Positions 18,214 to 29,651 of a DNA stretch of 30,358 nt are shown here, in pieces. A model generated the notes under the pieces. That model ran no database searches and had not been told where the DNA came from. It was given only the letters and a program-made list of their open reading frames with translations. Numbering within the stretch: position 1 is the first letter of the stretch; the number at the start of each line of letters is the position of its first letter. The DNA is from a virus. Made by a program: the position numbers and the translations under genes. The stretch is taken from positions 1 to 30,358 of the IMG/VR virus record IMGVR_UViG_3300027659_003275; one strand, written 5' to 3'.

Positions 18214-18586
18214 TATTCTCTCCAGCTAGTCGGTCTGCCAACCAGGCATTGAATAGAATTATCCAATCTCTATATGGCATTGTGACTAACATTTCTTCTC
18301 GGTCGTCTTTAGTAATTACTATTAAAGATCGTTCCTGTAAAGAACTTTTGATATCGGCCTTGCCTTGACGAATTGCATCTTTAATGTTGCAACGGATTTG
18401 TCGTTTGCATTCAATATGAATATCATCAAAGACTGGAGTGAATACATCTGCCTGCTCTGAGGCGCCGGCACGAGTCTGACCCAAGCCACGTTTGAAAGGT
18501 AGCTTCGTACTCTCTGTTAGGAGGTGCGCAATCTCTCTTTCGAAGTTGGCGCCTTTCATTCTGGCACCCTTACCTACACTAGCCAT
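18161..18586 (-). CDS. Holliday-junction-resolvase-like PD-(D/E)XK nuclease
   Basis: 141 residues. Motifs of the PD-(D/E)XK fold are in order: an N-terminal helix with Glu16 (KGANFEREIAHLL), a loop with GQTRAG, then Asp47 (EQADVFT) and E59-x-K61 (HIECKRQ). This is the pattern of archaeal-Hjc or phage resolvase-like and VRR-related nucleases of the same size. The probable role is resolution of branched DNA during replication, recombination or packaging. It starts in a TAATG overlap with the ClpP-like gene. The catalytic set appears intact; the junction specificity is inferred. Confidence 0.7.
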   Translation of the reverse strand: MASVGKGARMKGANFEREIAHLLTESTKLPFKRGLGQTRAGASEQADVFTPVFDDIHIECKRQIRCNIKDAIRQGKADIKSSLQERSLIVITKDDREEMLVTMPYRDWIILFNAWLADRLAGENNASIQEQGLSTSSDATE

Positions 18587-19245
18587 TACTCTACTCTTAA
18601 ATTTAGTTTTGGTTTCTTGGGGTACTCAATAATTTCATCAATGATTTTCAGATCTTTAGCTTCCTGAGCACTGAAGTAGACTGAAGTTTTTCCGGCGAAG
18701 TGTTTATTCCAGTTGGTTTTACTGATCTTGGTACGCTTGCGGATAACCTCATTCATTGTTTCAAGACTCCAGGCGTAGCTCTGTAAAGATACAGCAGCTT
18801 CAGTCAATGAATTGTTTTCGTTGACACCAATTGGTTCATGATAGAAGAATCTGCTGTTAGGGAAGGAGAGCCGAAGGTCTCCAGCCTGAGCGAGCACAAA
18901 TCCCCCTGAGAAAGCCATGCCCTGAGTAAGTGTGATAATAGGGCAGGTCACAGCACGAAGCATGTCGTAGATGGCCATAACCTGTATGATATCTCCACCA
19001 GGACTGTTGATAACTACCTTGATGAAATCATCACTCTCTGCTGCTAGTCGCTCCACTTGAGAGCAGATAGCGGAACCCATCACGGGCTCAATGGTGCCTC
19101 CGACAAGTACTGTGCGTGTACCCGGGCCGAACCCAACTAGAGTTGTTGGAGTCCAGTTGTCCGGACCGTCACCGGGGGTACCTTCTAGCTCTTCCTCTGG
19201 TTCACCTTCACACTCGTCTACTTTATTTAACATTTTTAATTTCAC
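18586..19245 (-). CDS. ClpP-like serine protease
   Basis: 219 residues; the GTG start at 19245 has AGGAGAT upstream and forms a GTGA overlap with the preceding gene. An acidic N-terminal extension of about 38 residues precedes the ClpP/crotonase-like domain: VVINSPGGD at 78-85, the nucleophile Ser113 in GMAFSGGF, and His136 in FFYHEP. In E. coli ClpP the third triad member precedes the FLSAPEA segment; the equivalent position here (before YFSAQEA) is Ser188, so the Asp is apparently missing or moved. Phage ClpP-like enzymes often serve as capsid maturation proteases, but this gene lies among nucleases, not capsid genes. A Clp-like regulatory role is equally possible. Confidence 0.8.
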   Translation of the reverse strand: MKLKMLNKVDECEGEPEEELEGTPGDGPDNWTPTTLVGFGPGTRTVLVGGTIEPVMGSAICSQVERLAAESDDFIKVVINSPGGDIIQVMAIYDMLRAVTCPIITLTQGMAFSGGFVLAQAGDLRLSFPNSRFFYHEPIGVNENNSLTEAAVSLQSYAWSLETMNEVIRKRTKISKTNWNKHFAGKTSVYFSAQEAKDLKIIDEIIEYPKKPKLNLRVE

Positions 19246-23985: not shown

Positions 23986-24191
23986 TCTGTTGGTTTCTCT
24001 ATTTTCATATGTTTGTAGGTATGATACTGGGCTGAAAGTTGTGAAGTTGTAGAAGAGTTTCCTTTATTTAAACAAGTAGCGAACCAGACATCGCCCAATC
24101 TATATACAAAATTAAGTGTTATGTATGGCCAACCCCCTTGGTCTTCAGAGTAGAACCAGTAGTAGCCTTTCTCTTTAGGGTGTCCGTTAAT
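23982..24191 (-). CDS. Coding-like frame without a standard start codon
   Basis: Directly after thyX, a frame of 69 codons runs without stop from 24191 to a TGA overlapping the exonuclease ATG (ATGA). Translated text looks like protein: KEKGYYWFYSEDQGGWPYIT, then NFVYRLGDVWFAT. The frame is bounded upstream by TAG, and no ATG, GTG or early TTG is available; the first codon is ATT, overlapping the thyX stop (ATTAA). It may start at ATT by re-initiation from thyX, be a C-terminal extension reached by frameshift, or be a remnant. No clear Shine-Dalgarno precedes the ATT. Confidence 0.45.
   Translation of the reverse strand: MNGHPKEKGYYWFYSEDQGGWPYITLNFVYRLGDVWFATCLNKGNSSTTSQLSAQYHTYKHMKIEKPTE
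23994..24018 (-). promoter_or_regulatory. Leader motif copy 2
   Basis: On the - strand, CTACAAACATATGAAAATAG then AGAAA, just before the exonuclease ATG, sharing ACAAACATA and AAAATAGAGAAAC with copy 1. It lies inside the coding-like frame that ends at 23982, so the conservation is at nucleotide level. Confidence 0.35.
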
Positions 24192-25152
24192 CTATTCTGA
24201 ATTTGGCAATGAATTCCTCTCGTTCTCTTTTGTTAGTTAGTATCGCTGGCAAGTAGATTTCGTTTTCTTTTTGTTCTTTTTGCAAGCGCATTCCTTCTAG
24301 ATTTTCTTCTGTCCCGGCTGTCATCTGGGGGTAGGCGGCGGCTAATTCTTCTGCTGAATAAGGTCCCCTGCGTAGAGATTTACCAGCTAGAAGTTGCATA
24401 AGTACTTCATGCTCGGCGGCGCTTAACACTACTCTATTCAATTGATAATCTCTAAACGCTTCCATACATATAGGAAACAGTTCATTCAGAATCTTTTCTA
24501 TAGCCTGGGCGTAGACCTGGATTTCTAGCTGAGCGTGAGGGTCGAGGCGCTGCTTCAAGAGCAACATCCAATCACCAAGATTAGCTGTTACAACACCCTC
24601 TGTGTACTGACCCTGAGGGAGTACGGCGCGCGCCTGCTCTCTACAAACACCGAGATTAAGAAGCTCCTGGTAATTAAGTTGAGAGTTGTGATTAGCAGAT
24701 TCGATGGCGATGAATGCATCTTCTTCTGCCTCAACATCAAGCTTACCATTACCGACCTGCTTGTTTCCTTGACCCTGCCCTCGGATATCCTCTGGGAGAG
24801 CCGGTGCCCACTTCTCATCAGGCATAACCGAGTAGCGACCACTCATCATATTCCAATGGAACCGATCATGGCGAATGAACTGATTATGGATGAAGATAGG
24901 AAGCCGCAAATGAAACTTAATCGTAGCCATGCTGAAAGGACTATAGTGTTCGTGGCGCATGAGGAATCTAATGAGATCACGATCCTCAGAAACCTTTCTG
25001 GTGCCTTTAGCGTAGCTAACTCTTGCTGCCTGGCTAATCGATTCGTCAGTTCCCATGTGGTCGATGTATTTACAAAATCCGTCGTTTAGTACTGGGATTG
25101 GTTTTTCAAGTTCATCTATATCTATTTGCATTTGCTTTATTAATCCTTGCAT
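24187..25152 (-). CDS. thyX: Flavin-dependent thymidylate synthase ThyX
   Basis: 321 residues from ATG 25152, chosen over an ATG at 25182 because AGGGG precedes it by six bases. It makes dTMP from dUMP with methylene-tetrahydrofolate and FAD/NADPH. Family blocks: HYSPFSMATIKFHLRLPIFI at 69-88; the ThyX motif at 94-108 (RHDRFHWNMMSGRYS); ARAVLPQGQYTEG; and the C-terminal QRLDPHAQLEI, all in the right order. The motif departs from the usual RHRxxSxN pattern: third Arg is Asp96 and the next Ser is His99, while Arg94, His95, Asn101, Ser104 and Arg106 are kept. It is longer than typical (about 220-250), with an extended C-terminus. Identification is firm; activity is not proven. Confidence 0.9.
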   Translation of the reverse strand: MQGLIKQMQIDIDELEKPIPVLNDGFCKYIDHMGTDESISQAARVSYAKGTRKVSEDRDLIRFLMRHEHYSPFSMATIKFHLRLPIFIHNQFIRHDRFHWNMMSGRYSVMPDEKWAPALPEDIRGQGQGNKQVGNGKLDVEAEEDAFIAIESANHNSQLNYQELLNLGVCREQARAVLPQGQYTEGVVTANLGDWMLLLKQRLDPHAQLEIQVYAQAIEKILNELFPICMEAFRDYQLNRVVLSAAEHEVLMQLLAGKSLRRGPYSAEELAAAYPQMTAGTEENLEGMRLQKEQKENEIYLPAILTNKREREEFIAKFRID

Positions 25153-25154
25153 AT

Positions 25155-25208
25155 TTACCCCTGGGTAAGGTTTCGGAAGCATCTGGGGCAGTATTCTTTT
25201 TTAGTCAT
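25155..25208 (-). CDS. 17-residue CPRC peptide upstream of thyX
   Basis: A minigene with ATG at 25208, an AAAGGA site seven bases upstream, and TAA at 25155-25157, two bases before the thyX ATG. The product is MTKKEYCPRCFRNLTQG, which holds a CxxC knuckle (CPRC) and basic residues, like half of a zinc ribbon. Its stop and the thyX start are close enough for coupling, so it might be a leader peptide or a tiny real protein. Chance cannot be excluded given its length. Confidence 0.4.
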   Translation of the reverse strand: MTKKEYCPRCFRNLTQG

Positions 25209-25267: not shown

Positions 25268-25507
25268 CTAGTGTTCAGCTAATTTTGCTACCAGCTCATA
25301 AGGCCGACCAGTGACTATACTGTCGGCACCTGCTGTGCAGAGAGCATCTTGAATTTCTCTTTGAATGAATTCGATCTCTCTCTGAAGGGCCTTAGTAGCA
25401 TTTACATCATCAATGCTGGGGTCTCCAGTAAAGTCAATGTCAGCCTCTATTGCCCGATCTAATGTCACCAAGAAGGTGACATTCTGTTTCACTATACGTG
25501 TTTCCAT
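25268..25507 (-). CDS. Hypothetical protein
   Basis: 79 residues, starting in a TAATG overlap with the last exon of the helicase gene. An N-terminal strand (VTFLVTLDRAIEADIDF) is followed by a helix (TKALQREIEFIQREIQDAL) and an AGADSI turn. No known motif. Translation is probably coupled to the helicase. Confidence 0.5.
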   Translation of the reverse strand: METRIVKQNVTFLVTLDRAIEADIDFTGDPSIDDVNATKALQREIEFIQREIQDALCTAGADSIVTGRPYELVAKLAEH

Positions 25508-26016
25508 TAAGCCTCAGCCTCTACTGTGTAGAGTTCCTCATAAGTTTCTTCTATGTCTTCTTCCATAGTTAGAGCGTGCTTCGACTCAAGTCGAGCTTCT
25601 TCTAGATCTTTCTCTACTAACGATACAGTGGATGAATCTAGGTCCATCATGATTTTGTTTTCAGGAGATTTGAAAGAAGTGATTTTGTTCTTACCAAAGA
25701 CTAACATAAGTCTGGGACTCAAAGTTCCAGTCTCTCTGTTTAGCCAGTGGATAGTTGCATCGGCGCCGCGATCATTAAGGTCGTTATAGACATGAATGAT
25801 AATGTTAGGTCGATACATCATTGCGCGAGCATCAGCGATATCATCGTTGACTGGGAGTTTCATCTTGCTAGTATCCATGGGCATGTTCTTTCTGTATTCA
25901 ACAGTAGCGAACATTGCACAGTGATATTTAGCAGTCATGTTTTTCTGACTGGTAGCGATATTACGCATACGACTAGTTTGATCTAGTGCGGCGTAGTCTC
26001 CGTAGTTTGCGGTATT
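25507..26016 (-). CDS. Primase-helicase, exon 2 (C-terminal helicase part)
   Basis: This exon supplies the last about 169 residues of the helicase. Read alone, the first ATG is at 25968, but the frame stays open for 16 codons upstream of it, encoding NTANYGDYAALDQTSRM, which gives the spacing DnaB-type helicases need between Walker B and the next motif. It then has the H3-like strand YHCAMFATVEYRK, an H4/Arg-finger-like region DDIADARAMMYRPN, then IIIHVYNDLNDRG, and a closing LMLVFGKNKI. No ATPase A motif exists here, so it cannot be a separate helicase. The tail after this is acidic. The first base is uncertain (26016 preferred, 26007 alternative). The stop overlaps the next ATG. Confidence 0.85.
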   Translation of the reverse strand, partial: NTANYGDYAALDQTSRMRNIATSQKNMTAKYHCAMFATVEYRKNMPMDTSKMKLPVNDDIADARAMMYRPNIIIHVYNDLNDRGADATIHWLNRETGTLSPRLMLVFGKNKITSFKSPENKIMMDLDSSTVSLVEKDLEEARLESKHALTMEEDIEETYEELYTVEAEA

Positions 26017-26321
26017 TAATTATGTTAATTGCAAGCAGAATGCTCACTTTCTTATGCTCTCGCATAAGTTCGGACTCTACCTTGATCATAGCACAATAGT
26101 GCCTTAGACCTCCTGATTAGAGTCTCTGAACCTTACGCCCGTAGGCGGCTTGGCTGCTGATTGCCCATTGTAATTGTGAGAGTCTGTTTCCACTCTCTCG
26201 CAATCCTTACTGTTGTTTCTGCTCTCGCAGCTAGTCTATTAGCCAGTAAGGCTTTAGGGGTTTCCAGCAATTTACAGGATTGTTTTACGGCGATTTCTGA
26301 CGCCGTGCGGACAATACGTTT
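26017..26321 (-). ncRNA. Group I intron, without ORF, inside the primase-helicase gene
   Basis: About 305 nt on the - strand. P1: exon end UGCGGAU pairs with GUCCGCA with the terminal U-G wobble at the 5' splice site. P2: ACGGCG/CGCCGU. P3: UCCUG/CAGGA. P4: UGCUG/CAGCA. P5 is extended (CCUUACUG/CAGUAAGG with two inner hairpins, one a GAGA tetraloop, plus an AUUG/CAAU-GAGAGU/ACUCUC arm). P6: CGCC-UACG-GGCG. P7: GACUC/GAGUC in GUUCAGAGACUC and AAGGUAGAGUCC, the classical R and S elements. P8: GCAC/GUGC. P9: CUUAUGC-GAGA-GCAUAAG. P10: IGS GUAUU with exon 2 AAUAC. The intron contains stops in the exon frame. The best in-frame 3' boundary follows an A, not the usual G; confirm by cDNA. Confidence 0.9.
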
Positions 26322-28295
26322 ATCCGCAACTACTAAAATCTTTCTGTCAGGATATTTACTGCGAGCGTACTTGAGTTGTTTCTCTAATGGACTAAGAGTA
26401 TTTCCATCTTCTGAATCGATAAGAATCAATCGCTCCTCAGCGAGCAGAGTACGTAGAGTTTCTGCTGCTCTTTGGTAGATAGCCCAGCCATCTTTCGTTT
26501 TAAGATTTCGATAAGGGTTGGCTGCCTCACCTATAGTTAGTTTAGGTTCTTCGGGCTGCCTTAGCATTGTAGCTATAGTTGCTATAGCTCTTGGGGCTAC
26601 TTGGGTATATGAATCGTCAGTCCAATGCATAATAACCATTGCGAATGGATCATGCATTGCAACGTCTATACCTAGTGAGGTGGTAACGGCAGTCTTACCT
26701 GCGTTAGCACGTCCGCCAAAGTATACTAAGTTTCCATCAGTGGCACTCATACCGCCGCTAAGAGCGGCGCCGAACCTTCTAAAGAATCCAAATTGAAACT
26801 CACTAAGATTCTTATCAGTAGCTGAGGTTGCTTTTACTTCCTCTAGCGCATCAAACCGACCCACCTGATGTCCAACACCCATAGTAGTCTTCTCGTATTC
26901 TTTATTGATTTCCTCAATATCAAGTTCATGTTGGGTTAGGGCGGTAGTCAGGTTGGCAGGATCGCTACTAACTGCACGCATATACTTCTGGGCAGCGCCC
27001 TCAAGGCGCTCACGTCGCTCCTGCTCTTTCCCGTCTCTAATAGCAGAGACATCCTGAGTAATACTCAGATAAGAAATTCCAGTGAAATCAGAGAGCTGTT
27101 TTGTTAGAAGCTCTCGTCTAATCGCTGAAGTTTCTGCTGCGATTAAAGGGACCATAGAGTTGCAGACATCATCTGGCGTTGCTTTATCAGAGATTCTTGC
27201 TAGAGTCCACTCGAAGGCACTAGTCAACGATAGGCTCAGAAAAAGCTTTCCGTCTTTCTGGCCCGCGATAAGCTCTCCCGGATCCTTTGCTCCGTTAGAT
27301 GGAGCACTAACGACAGAGCAACTAACACCTGGAGCGAACTTTATTTCGTTCATTAGGATGCGCTCAGTTGCCGTTGTGCCCGCTTCGTCCCAGTCCAGGC
27401 AGAAGTATGCCTGCCTGATCCCAAGCATCTTTAACAGGGCAAGGTGCTCACCAGTGAAGGCCGTACCACAAACTGCTGCTACGTTATAGATTCCAACTCT
27501 ATGCAAGGCTGCTAGATCCCCTGGGCCTTCTACGATGTAGAGGCCATCTTTCTTGGCACCAGCCTTAATGGCAATATCGATTCCAAGAAGGATCTTTTTC
27601 TTTTCATAGATAGCAGATTCATGGGAGTTGATATACTTCGGGCCGCTCTTCCCAAGATTTCTCGAGATAAGTCCACAAGGACGACTACGATGATCCTTTA
27701 CAACAAAGGTAATCATCTCAGTACTTACAAAGTCTGTAACACCAGTACGAATTAACATACTGCTGGCTATGTCTTGCATAGACCAGCCAAGCTCTCGTAA
27801 GCGAGCAGTCAGCTCTCCTGGATCGATAGAGCCGATAGTAAGTCTGTCTTGACTCCAGCCCCGCTCTTCGCAGTAGCTTTTAACAAGATCTGTATCTGTT
27901 GCTTCAATGATATTGCTAATATCATTTGCTAACTTAAACAGCTTCGCCTTCTCTCTATCTGCTGAACTTACTGCACCAAGCTGGATCTCTAAATCTAGCT
28001 GCGCAGCCAGGGCGGGAAGTGTCTCGAGAATGAACTCTGAGCCAGTGGAGGGAAGGTTCTCAATCACCTGTGCTGCGCGGAAGATATCGAAATCCCCACA
28101 CCCACTCCAGCATCTTACGGTCTGATACCCACTCTTTGGATTGTATGAACAGCTAGGATTCTTATCCGAGTGGTTGAAGCAGTGAAATTTACCTTTGACG
28201 TTTCCTGCTTCATTGCCTAGGTGCTTCTCAAGATAAACCGAAAGCTTTGGGCGCAGCGCGGCCATAAGGTCATCTACGTTATTTATAAATGCCAT
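26322..28295 (-). CDS. Primase-helicase, exon 1 (primase and ATPase part)
   Basis: 658 codons, joined to exon 2 by splicing for a total of about 827 residues. N-terminal zinc motif C39-x2-H42...C62-x3-C66 (CHC2-like). TOPRIM primase core: EGPGD at 256-260 and DWDEAG at 301-306, for RNA primer synthesis. RecA-like helicase: Walker A GGRANAGKT at 527-535 and Walker B ILVVAD ending at Asp658, the last codon before the intron. The unspliced frame continues to a TAA at 26133, adding 62 residues without helicase similarity (KRIVRTAS...), which are intron sequence. The combined fold resembles the T7 gp4 arrangement, a fused primase and DnaB-type helicase that unwinds the fork. Start ATG 28295 lies 11 bases after the upstream gene. 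Confidence 0.9.
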
Positions 28296-28300
28296 TTATA

Positions 28301-28324
28301 TTCTCTTTATTTTAAGTTTGCGTG
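28301..28324 (-). promoter_or_regulatory. Leader motif copy 3 (divergent)
   Basis: On the - strand, CACGCAAACTTAAAATAAAG then AGAA, just before the primase ATG; it overlaps the last codons of the GMP-reductase-like gene. Similar to copies 1 and 2 but with several changes. Confidence 0.25.
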
Positions 28325-29392
28325 ATCTAGACTTTCAATCTGTCCGGCATGTGTAATTTGTATGAACTCAACGTTATACGGTTTAAGTTGACTTAAGGAC
28401 TCAAGCCCAAGGTAAGATAGCGCAGAAGAAACTCCGCCCCTATATTTCATTACAATAGATTTTACAGTATCCCCTCCCCAAGACATCTCAGATGTGCTGG
28501 CGCCTTCTGGACACCAAGAGGCTTCGCCCTTTTGATCTATTTGGAATTCTGCACTAGCTTGTCCACGATAGGTTTTTGTATAAACCTTAGGCATCCTGTC
28601 GGCCATTGGCCCACAGATTAACAGGTTTGAATTATCAACATACTGTTGCAATTCCCAACCTGGGCTTTCAAAAGCCTTTGAGAATTCACGGCCCATCATT
28701 ATGCCACTAGCTCCAGCGGCTAAACATTTAACTGCATCGCCAGGGGTTTTGATTCCACCATCTGCGATAAGGGAAACATTTCTTTTTAGCTCGGGTCGAA
28801 GACCGAGGCGGCATGAAATAAGGTGTATAGACGTGATTGTGGGAACCCCAACTCCTGTCATCAGACGGGTGGTGCAGGCAGAGCCTCCACCGATACCAAC
28901 CCTAAGGTGAGTATAGCCCCAGAGGCAACAGTCCTCCGCAGCAACAGCTGTAGCTATAGATCCGCTCATTAACCCTTTAATAAAGGGAAGCTCTGCTCTA
29001 ATAAACTCTGCAGCATATTTTCCGGAGACAGAGTGACCGTGAGCGATATCGATCGCTACATTAAGCTCTGCTCCTTCTGGAAGTGATGCAGCGCAATCAT
29101 CTATAAAGATTTTTAGATGTTCTTTGGTAGCTCCTACCGCAAAGAAAGCAGGTGTGGAGTGGAATTCCTTAAGGCATCTTCGTCGCTCTTCTTCTGGCAG
29201 GAACCTGCTGATCACTGGAATCTCTCCCACTTCGAGCATGGCTTTAGCTAGCCAATAGCCTGTTACTCTATCCATCGGGGCGGAGTAAATGAAGGGGTGG
29301 AGTTTCGCCTCACTGCGACTTAATAACTTTCCTAGTTTTGGAACAAGGAGAAGGTCATTACAAGCTGGGTTATTATTAAAATTTGTTGACAT
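28307..29392 (-). CDS. GMP reductase/IMP dehydrogenase-family enzyme (CBS-less)
   Basis: 361 residues from ATG 29392 (GGTGAAAG upstream), overlapping the previous gene by 17 bases. A TIM barrel with CNDLLLVPK at the N-terminus, SAPMDRVTG at 37-45, DIAHGHS, the catalytic loop with Cys173 (GIGGGSACTTRLMTGVG), the phosphate site IADGGIKTPGDAVKCLAAGA at 209-228, and a C-terminal GGVSSALSYLG. No CBS domains are inserted, and the RYFQ flap of IMPDH is not found; both favour GMP reductase (GMP to IMP) over IMPDH. The Cys loop is slightly IMPDH-like (GVGVP), so the reaction is not settled. In context it would adjust purine pools for phage DNA synthesis. Confidence 0.85.
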   Translation of the reverse strand: MSTNFNNNPACNDLLLVPKLGKLLSRSEAKLHPFIYSAPMDRVTGYWLAKAMLEVGEIPVISRFLPEEERRRCLKEFHSTPAFFAVGATKEHLKIFIDDCAASLPEGAELNVAIDIAHGHSVSGKYAAEFIRAELPFIKGLMSGSIATAVAAEDCCLWGYTHLRVGIGGGSACTTRLMTGVGVPTITSIHLISCRLGLRPELKRNVSLIADGGIKTPGDAVKCLAAGASGIMMGREFSKAFESPGWELQQYVDNSNLLICGPMADRMPKVYTKTYRGQASAEFQIDQKGEASWCPEGASTSEMSWGGDTVKSIVMKYRGGVSSALSYLGLESLSQLKPYNVEFIQITHAGQIESLDHANLK

Positions 29393-29651
29393 AAATTCTT
29401 TCACCATTTTCACCGGGGATATCTCGAGCGCGCATAGCTATGTCTATCCACTGCCCCTGTCGGGGAAGCACTTCCATAACACAGGCCTCGTAAGGTCCCG
29501 TAAATTCTATCCCCTCTGTTTCGAGAATAGTTTCTGTATAATCCATCATAATAGCTGAGGCTTCAGTAAGAGATAGGTAGGGGCCAAAAGTTTTAAAGAT
29601 TTGGTCCGCACCTATTTCTCCCTGAACATAAATCAAGAAGAGCGTATCCAT
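29376..29651 (-). CDS. Hypothetical protein
   Basis: 91 residues, with its ATG directly after the nuclease stop (TAAATG). It has mixed alpha/beta sequence (MDTLFLIYVQGEIGADQIFK; YEACVMEVLPRQGQWIDIAM) and may be a small single-domain protein. No motif recognised. The 3' end overlaps the GMP-reductase-like gene. Confidence 0.5.
   Translation of the reverse strand: MDTLFLIYVQGEIGADQIFKTFGPYLSLTEASAIMMDYTETILETEGIEFTGPYEACVMEVLPRQGQWIDIAMRARDIPGENGERIYVNKF

Follow-up and report, generated by a model that had tools for sequence, protein, structure and literature searches.

A probable 305-nt group I intron with a terminal A in a phage primase-helicase gene

The minus strand of the window (the whole stretch of 30,358 nt analysed here, IMG/VR record IMGVR_UViG_3300027659_003275) very probably carries a group I intron that splits a phage primase-helicase gene and whose two-step splicing would restore a protein of 827 residues. 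Several lines of evidence agree with this reading: a covariance model matches the segment, 59 relatives show the exact empty site, another phage has a related intron there that differs by 18 compensatory pair changes, and the match to DnaB-like helicases is restored when the exons are joined. Its last base is A where G is expected.

Conserved replication genes of phages, among them those for DNA polymerases, ribonucleotide reductases and terminases, are already well known to carry group I introns (review PMC3984707). The window intron resembles such introns in having a group I core, in interrupting a conserved region of an essential protein-coding gene and in the existence of intron-less relatives, but differs in its host gene, its lack of an ORF and its last base. 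The new points are the host gene and the terminal A, the latter depending on one metagenome contig. Besides the correction of a split replication gene, the locus provides a compact, ORF-less group I intron, apparently of the omega-A type, whose same-site relative has omega-G; a one-base swap between the two introns would test the need of the second splicing step for a terminal G.

The interrupted gene and the joined protein

In the list of open reading frames of the window the gene appears, as the initial annotation had described, as a minus-strand frame of 720 codons (28295-26133) and a second, separate frame that terminates at 25507. Joining 28295-26322 to 26016-25507 yields a continuous protein of exactly 827 residues, where about 827 had been proposed. 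The claim that helicase similarity is divided between the two frames also held: the joined protein matches the DnaB-like helicase families phrog_243 (E 7e-9, residues 516-789) and phrog_19 (5e-8), in both cases across the junction at residue 658, whereas neither exon product alone matches such families at E ≤ 0.001. At the same threshold the exon-1 product has matches to no families other than those of primases, and exon 2 by itself has none.

The joined chain combines a zinc finger, primase, Toprim and DnaB-like helicase, the composition of a phage primase-helicase. Among the 16 full-length members of the alignment, 13 match DnaB_C and 12 match Zn_ribbon_DnaG, the latter not being listed for the window protein itself, and D658 is invariant. 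The intron is located directly 3' of the codon for the aspartate of what we take, from knowledge of RecA-fold helicases, to be the Walker B motif.

It is extremely unlikely that the two frames are separate genes, encoding a primase and a small protein initiated at ATG 25968, with no splicing. An ATG-started ORF (25968-25507) is indeed present, but this ATG is within conserved helicase sequence (RMRN), the relatives have one continuous gene and a group I core is present.

Genes for an IMP dehydrogenase/GMP reductase-like protein (28307-29413, minus strand) and a ThyX thymidylate synthase (24187-25182, minus strand) occur near the primase-helicase gene, and a Clp protease-like gene is found at 18586-19245. 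No DNA similarity to the window was detected among deposited phages, and no exon-2 relative among bacterial and archaeal genomes.

Intron core and exact boundaries

A group I intron had been proposed between the two frames, together with an Rfam search as a check. This search gave a match to RF00028 (Intron_gpI) on the minus strand (26331-26051) over the full model (1-253), with 66.4 bits and E 6e-15 (gathering score, 50 bits), the sole RNA family above threshold in the window. The unconstrained fold has an energy of -105.4 kcal/mol (z = -5.2 versus shuffled sequences). The proposed P1 with its terminal U-G pair, P2 to P9 and the R and S elements are all there with standard pairs, and include the P4-P6 and P3-P8 domains with the P7 guanosine site (Table 1). 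The P7 and P3 strands are four bases apart (UAAU), and P7.1/P7.2, a trait of subgroup IA, does not occur between them; in a core-motif scan, extra sequence at this position is present in related viral introns and absent from the window intron and from that of phage L202 (see below). No endonuclease ORF was found inside the 305 nt.

Table 1. Positions in the window of the exons, the predicted intron and its structural elements
Feature	Position	Strand	Description
Exon 1	26322..28295	-	658 codons: zinc finger, primase N domain, Toprim, RecA-like helicase up to Walker B aspartate (..ILVVAD)
Exon 2	25507..26016	-	169 codons + stop; C-terminal helicase part (NTANYGDY...TVEYRKNMPMD...)
Predicted ligated exon junction			GAUAAUACC
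Group I intron (probable)	26321-26017	-	305 nt, in phase 0 and ORF-less; between Walker B aspartate codon and next asparagine codon
P1	26306..26328	-	exon UGCGGAU (26328-26322) + GUCCGCA (26312-26306); terminal U-G pair marks 5' splice site
P10 strand GUAUU	26313..26317	-	pairs with exon-2 start AAUAC (26016-26012); same strand in L202
P2 hairpin	26288..26305	-	
P3 5' strand UCCUG	26275..26279	-	partner CAGGA 26115-26111
P4, P5 and extended P5 domain	26154..26270	-	P4 26270-26265 / 26159-26154; P5 26260-26258 / 26166-26164
P6/P6a	26131..26153	-	UACG loop
P7 5' strand GACUC	26120..26124	-	G-binding pair G26124-C26073
P3 3' strand CAGGA	26111..26115	-	
P8 hairpin	26084..26110	-	
P7 3' strand GAGUC	26073..26077	-	
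P9 hairpin	26051..26068	-	GAGA loop
P9.1 hairpin	26031..26047	-	
Last intron nucleotide (omega)	26017	-	A where G expected
R element		-	present, GUUCAGAGACUC
S element		-	present, AAGGUAGAGUCC

Relatives were collected from IMG/VR by protein search for exon 2 and with a profile built from the final 150 residues for exon 1. The comparison with intronless relatives, also suggested by the initial annotation, gave 59 related contigs that read through the site uninterrupted (...D/NT.NY... with few substitutions, the slash marking the boundary); these comprise 42 exon-2 relatives (42/42 of the first search), 15 more, and L200 and L201. In the closest relative (L002/L003), which lacks the insert and shares 81% amino-acid identity in exon 1 and 86% in exon 2, the site reads GTAGTTGCCGAT followed directly by AACACAGCA; in the window, GTAGTTGCGGAT and AATACCGCA are separated by 305 nt. 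Because exon 2 and the intron both start with AA, the insert is either 26321-26017 or the same segment slid by one or two bases. The last exon-1 base, U26322, is the U of the terminal P1 pair (U26322-G26312), which fixes the first register and gives a boundary consistent with the empty site in the relatives.

The adenosine at the 3' end

The intron 3' base is A, and not the G expected at omega, in all three registers that give the right protein, a feature overlooked in the initial annotation. Splice sites were enumerated by combining 5' ends from 26345 to 26301 with 3' ends at a G from 26060 to 25961. If exon 1 ends at U26322, the stretch scanned has a single in-frame 3' site at a G (25966), and its use would remove 17 residues, among them the conserved N, T, N and Y. 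Other in-frame combinations exist (e.g., exon 1 ending at A26321 joined after G26010, giving VVAD-T-NYGDY), and would produce a slightly altered protein by splicing at a nearby G. Such an event is very unlikely, as it requires a non-U at the 5' site, makes the conserved NT.NY stretch two residues shorter and leaves P10 unused.

P10 (GUAUU:AAUAC) forms five Watson-Crick pairs from the first base of exon 2, a fit equalled or bettered at 4 of 2,475 exon positions. By inspection, the UU preceding A26017 can pair with G26071 and A26070 as a weak P9.0 with one G-U. The guanosine site in P7 is the usual G-C (G26124-C26073), unchanged. The fit of P10 and P9.0 suggests that position 26017 behaves as omega, though it is an A.

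Omega-G has been called universal in papers; however, the hexacoral ND5-717 intron is an exception that ends in A and shows exact exon ligation in vivo (PMC6545197, PMC8146996), and a 2025 database paper describes the last intron position as "most frequently, the terminal G" (PMC11835236). Since ND5-717 counts as a group I intron in spite of its omega-A (PMC6545197), omega-G can be considered near-universal and not strictly defining. The window intron and ND5-717 are alike in having a terminal A instead of G, but the latter is mitochondrial, resides in an unrelated gene, has a large gene-bearing P8 and is removed by back-splicing in mushroom corals (PMC6545197, PMC8146996). In the literature searched, of incomplete journal coverage, no report of omega-A in phages was found.

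The terminal A is the sole real oddity of the intron and may represent a tolerated variant, early decay or a wrong assembly base. It is expected to impair the second step, so that efficient second-step splicing is less certain than was initially assumed. There is about an even chance that the ribozyme splices accurately with omega-A, keeping the normal G-C guanosine-binding pair and placing the 3' splice site by means of P10 and P9.0. The RNA would fold into a P1-P9 ribozyme, exogenous guanosine bound at G26124-C26073 would cut after U26322, and the freed exon 1 would attack directly 3' of A26017, a splice site that P10 and the weak P9.0 would hold in position, ligation yielding the 827-residue protein.

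A decaying intron, in which the first step takes place and the second fails or is slow, leaving the helicase low or as a 720-residue truncated product in a less fit genome variant, is unlikely. The terminal A alongside an unchanged G-binding pair is compatible with decay, as is the lack of an endonuclease ORF to maintain mobility. However, selection on a replicative primase-helicase should be strong, neither exon is disrupted (exon 2 keeping 86% identity with the nearest relative), P1 and P10 are preserved, and the terminal-A ND5-717 introns ligate exons exactly in vivo (PMC6545197). It is likewise improbable that the A is an assembly or sequencing error in a functional ribozyme and that the real phage has omega-G. 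The base is a single difference in one metagenome contig and both other interrupted copies (L202 and L170) end in G, but single-base errors at a chosen position are rare in assembled contigs, and no damage is seen in the other splicing features or in either reading frame.

Same-site inserts and other introns

Two other phages carry inserts at the helicase codon boundary of the window intron, a point that the initial annotation had also missed. In the first (L202, IMGVR_UViG_3300021197_001667; 52% identity to the window in exon 1 and 63% in exon 2), Rfam recognizes an insert of 1,126 nt, located at exactly this base, as group I (68 bits), and its core is the nearest to the window intron among all loci compared (nhmmer 2.6e-20; next, 2.4e-11). 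Both introns share the insertion base, a related core, the GUAUU P10 strand and the lack of room for P7.1/P7.2 between P7 and P3. The L202 intron differs in its length, its antisense LAGLIDADG ORF, its terminal G (TTACTG/AATACA) and its last P7 pair, A-U and not C-G as in the window; this pair is one of 18, out of 58 pairs aligned by hand, in which both bases differ and pairing is kept. The ORF, on the opposite strand of the 3' tail, encodes 260 amino acids with a LAGLIDADG_3 domain and a weak N-terminal HTH match.

In the second phage (L170; exon 2, 61% identity) the insert at this boundary ends in G (CGCTTG/AACACC) and holds a LAGLIDADG_3 ORF in sense orientation. It is presumably a group I intron, the contig breaking before any intron core; an intein was rejected, as the endonuclease frame differs from the exon frame. 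The L170 and L202 ORFs are 45% identical over 188 residues, and neither endonuclease has a meaningful match in the window. These homologous ORFs, in opposite orientations at one helicase codon boundary (L202:3719-4501, minus; L170:1-594, plus), are useful for studying the invasion of introns by endonuclease genes.

In the exon-2 tree the window groups with the intron-less L003 (98/95) and the three interrupted genes are not united in a single clade; the supported branches require two changes or more. The patchy distribution of the intron is what a mobile or repeatedly lost element would show. The window intron appears to be an ORF-less relative of the L202 lineage; it may have lost an endonuclease or been moved by an enzyme encoded elsewhere, a process described as collaborative homing (PMC3984707), which could apply here because the window is only a 30-kb fragment.

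Searches of viral contigs with CAAGGTAGAGTCCGAAC gave three GC-rich contigs, discarded as an 18-base chance match only, and GGTTCAGAGACTCTAANC was found at one locus (L048). A group I intron at another location (L169, G001:C1:93527-93852, minus strand; 86.8 bits) occurs in the closest relative phage (150-kb contig of L002); inspection by eye places it in a DnaE-like polymerase gene, close to the motif with the catalytic aspartate. The L202 contig carries a second group I intron (L256, G003:C1:12531-12841; 65.3 bits). An 18-base P4-P6 motif occurs in at least 120 viral contigs (L049-L168); 13 of the 14 contigs checked among the matches listed contain group I introns above the Rfam threshold, some having two to four.
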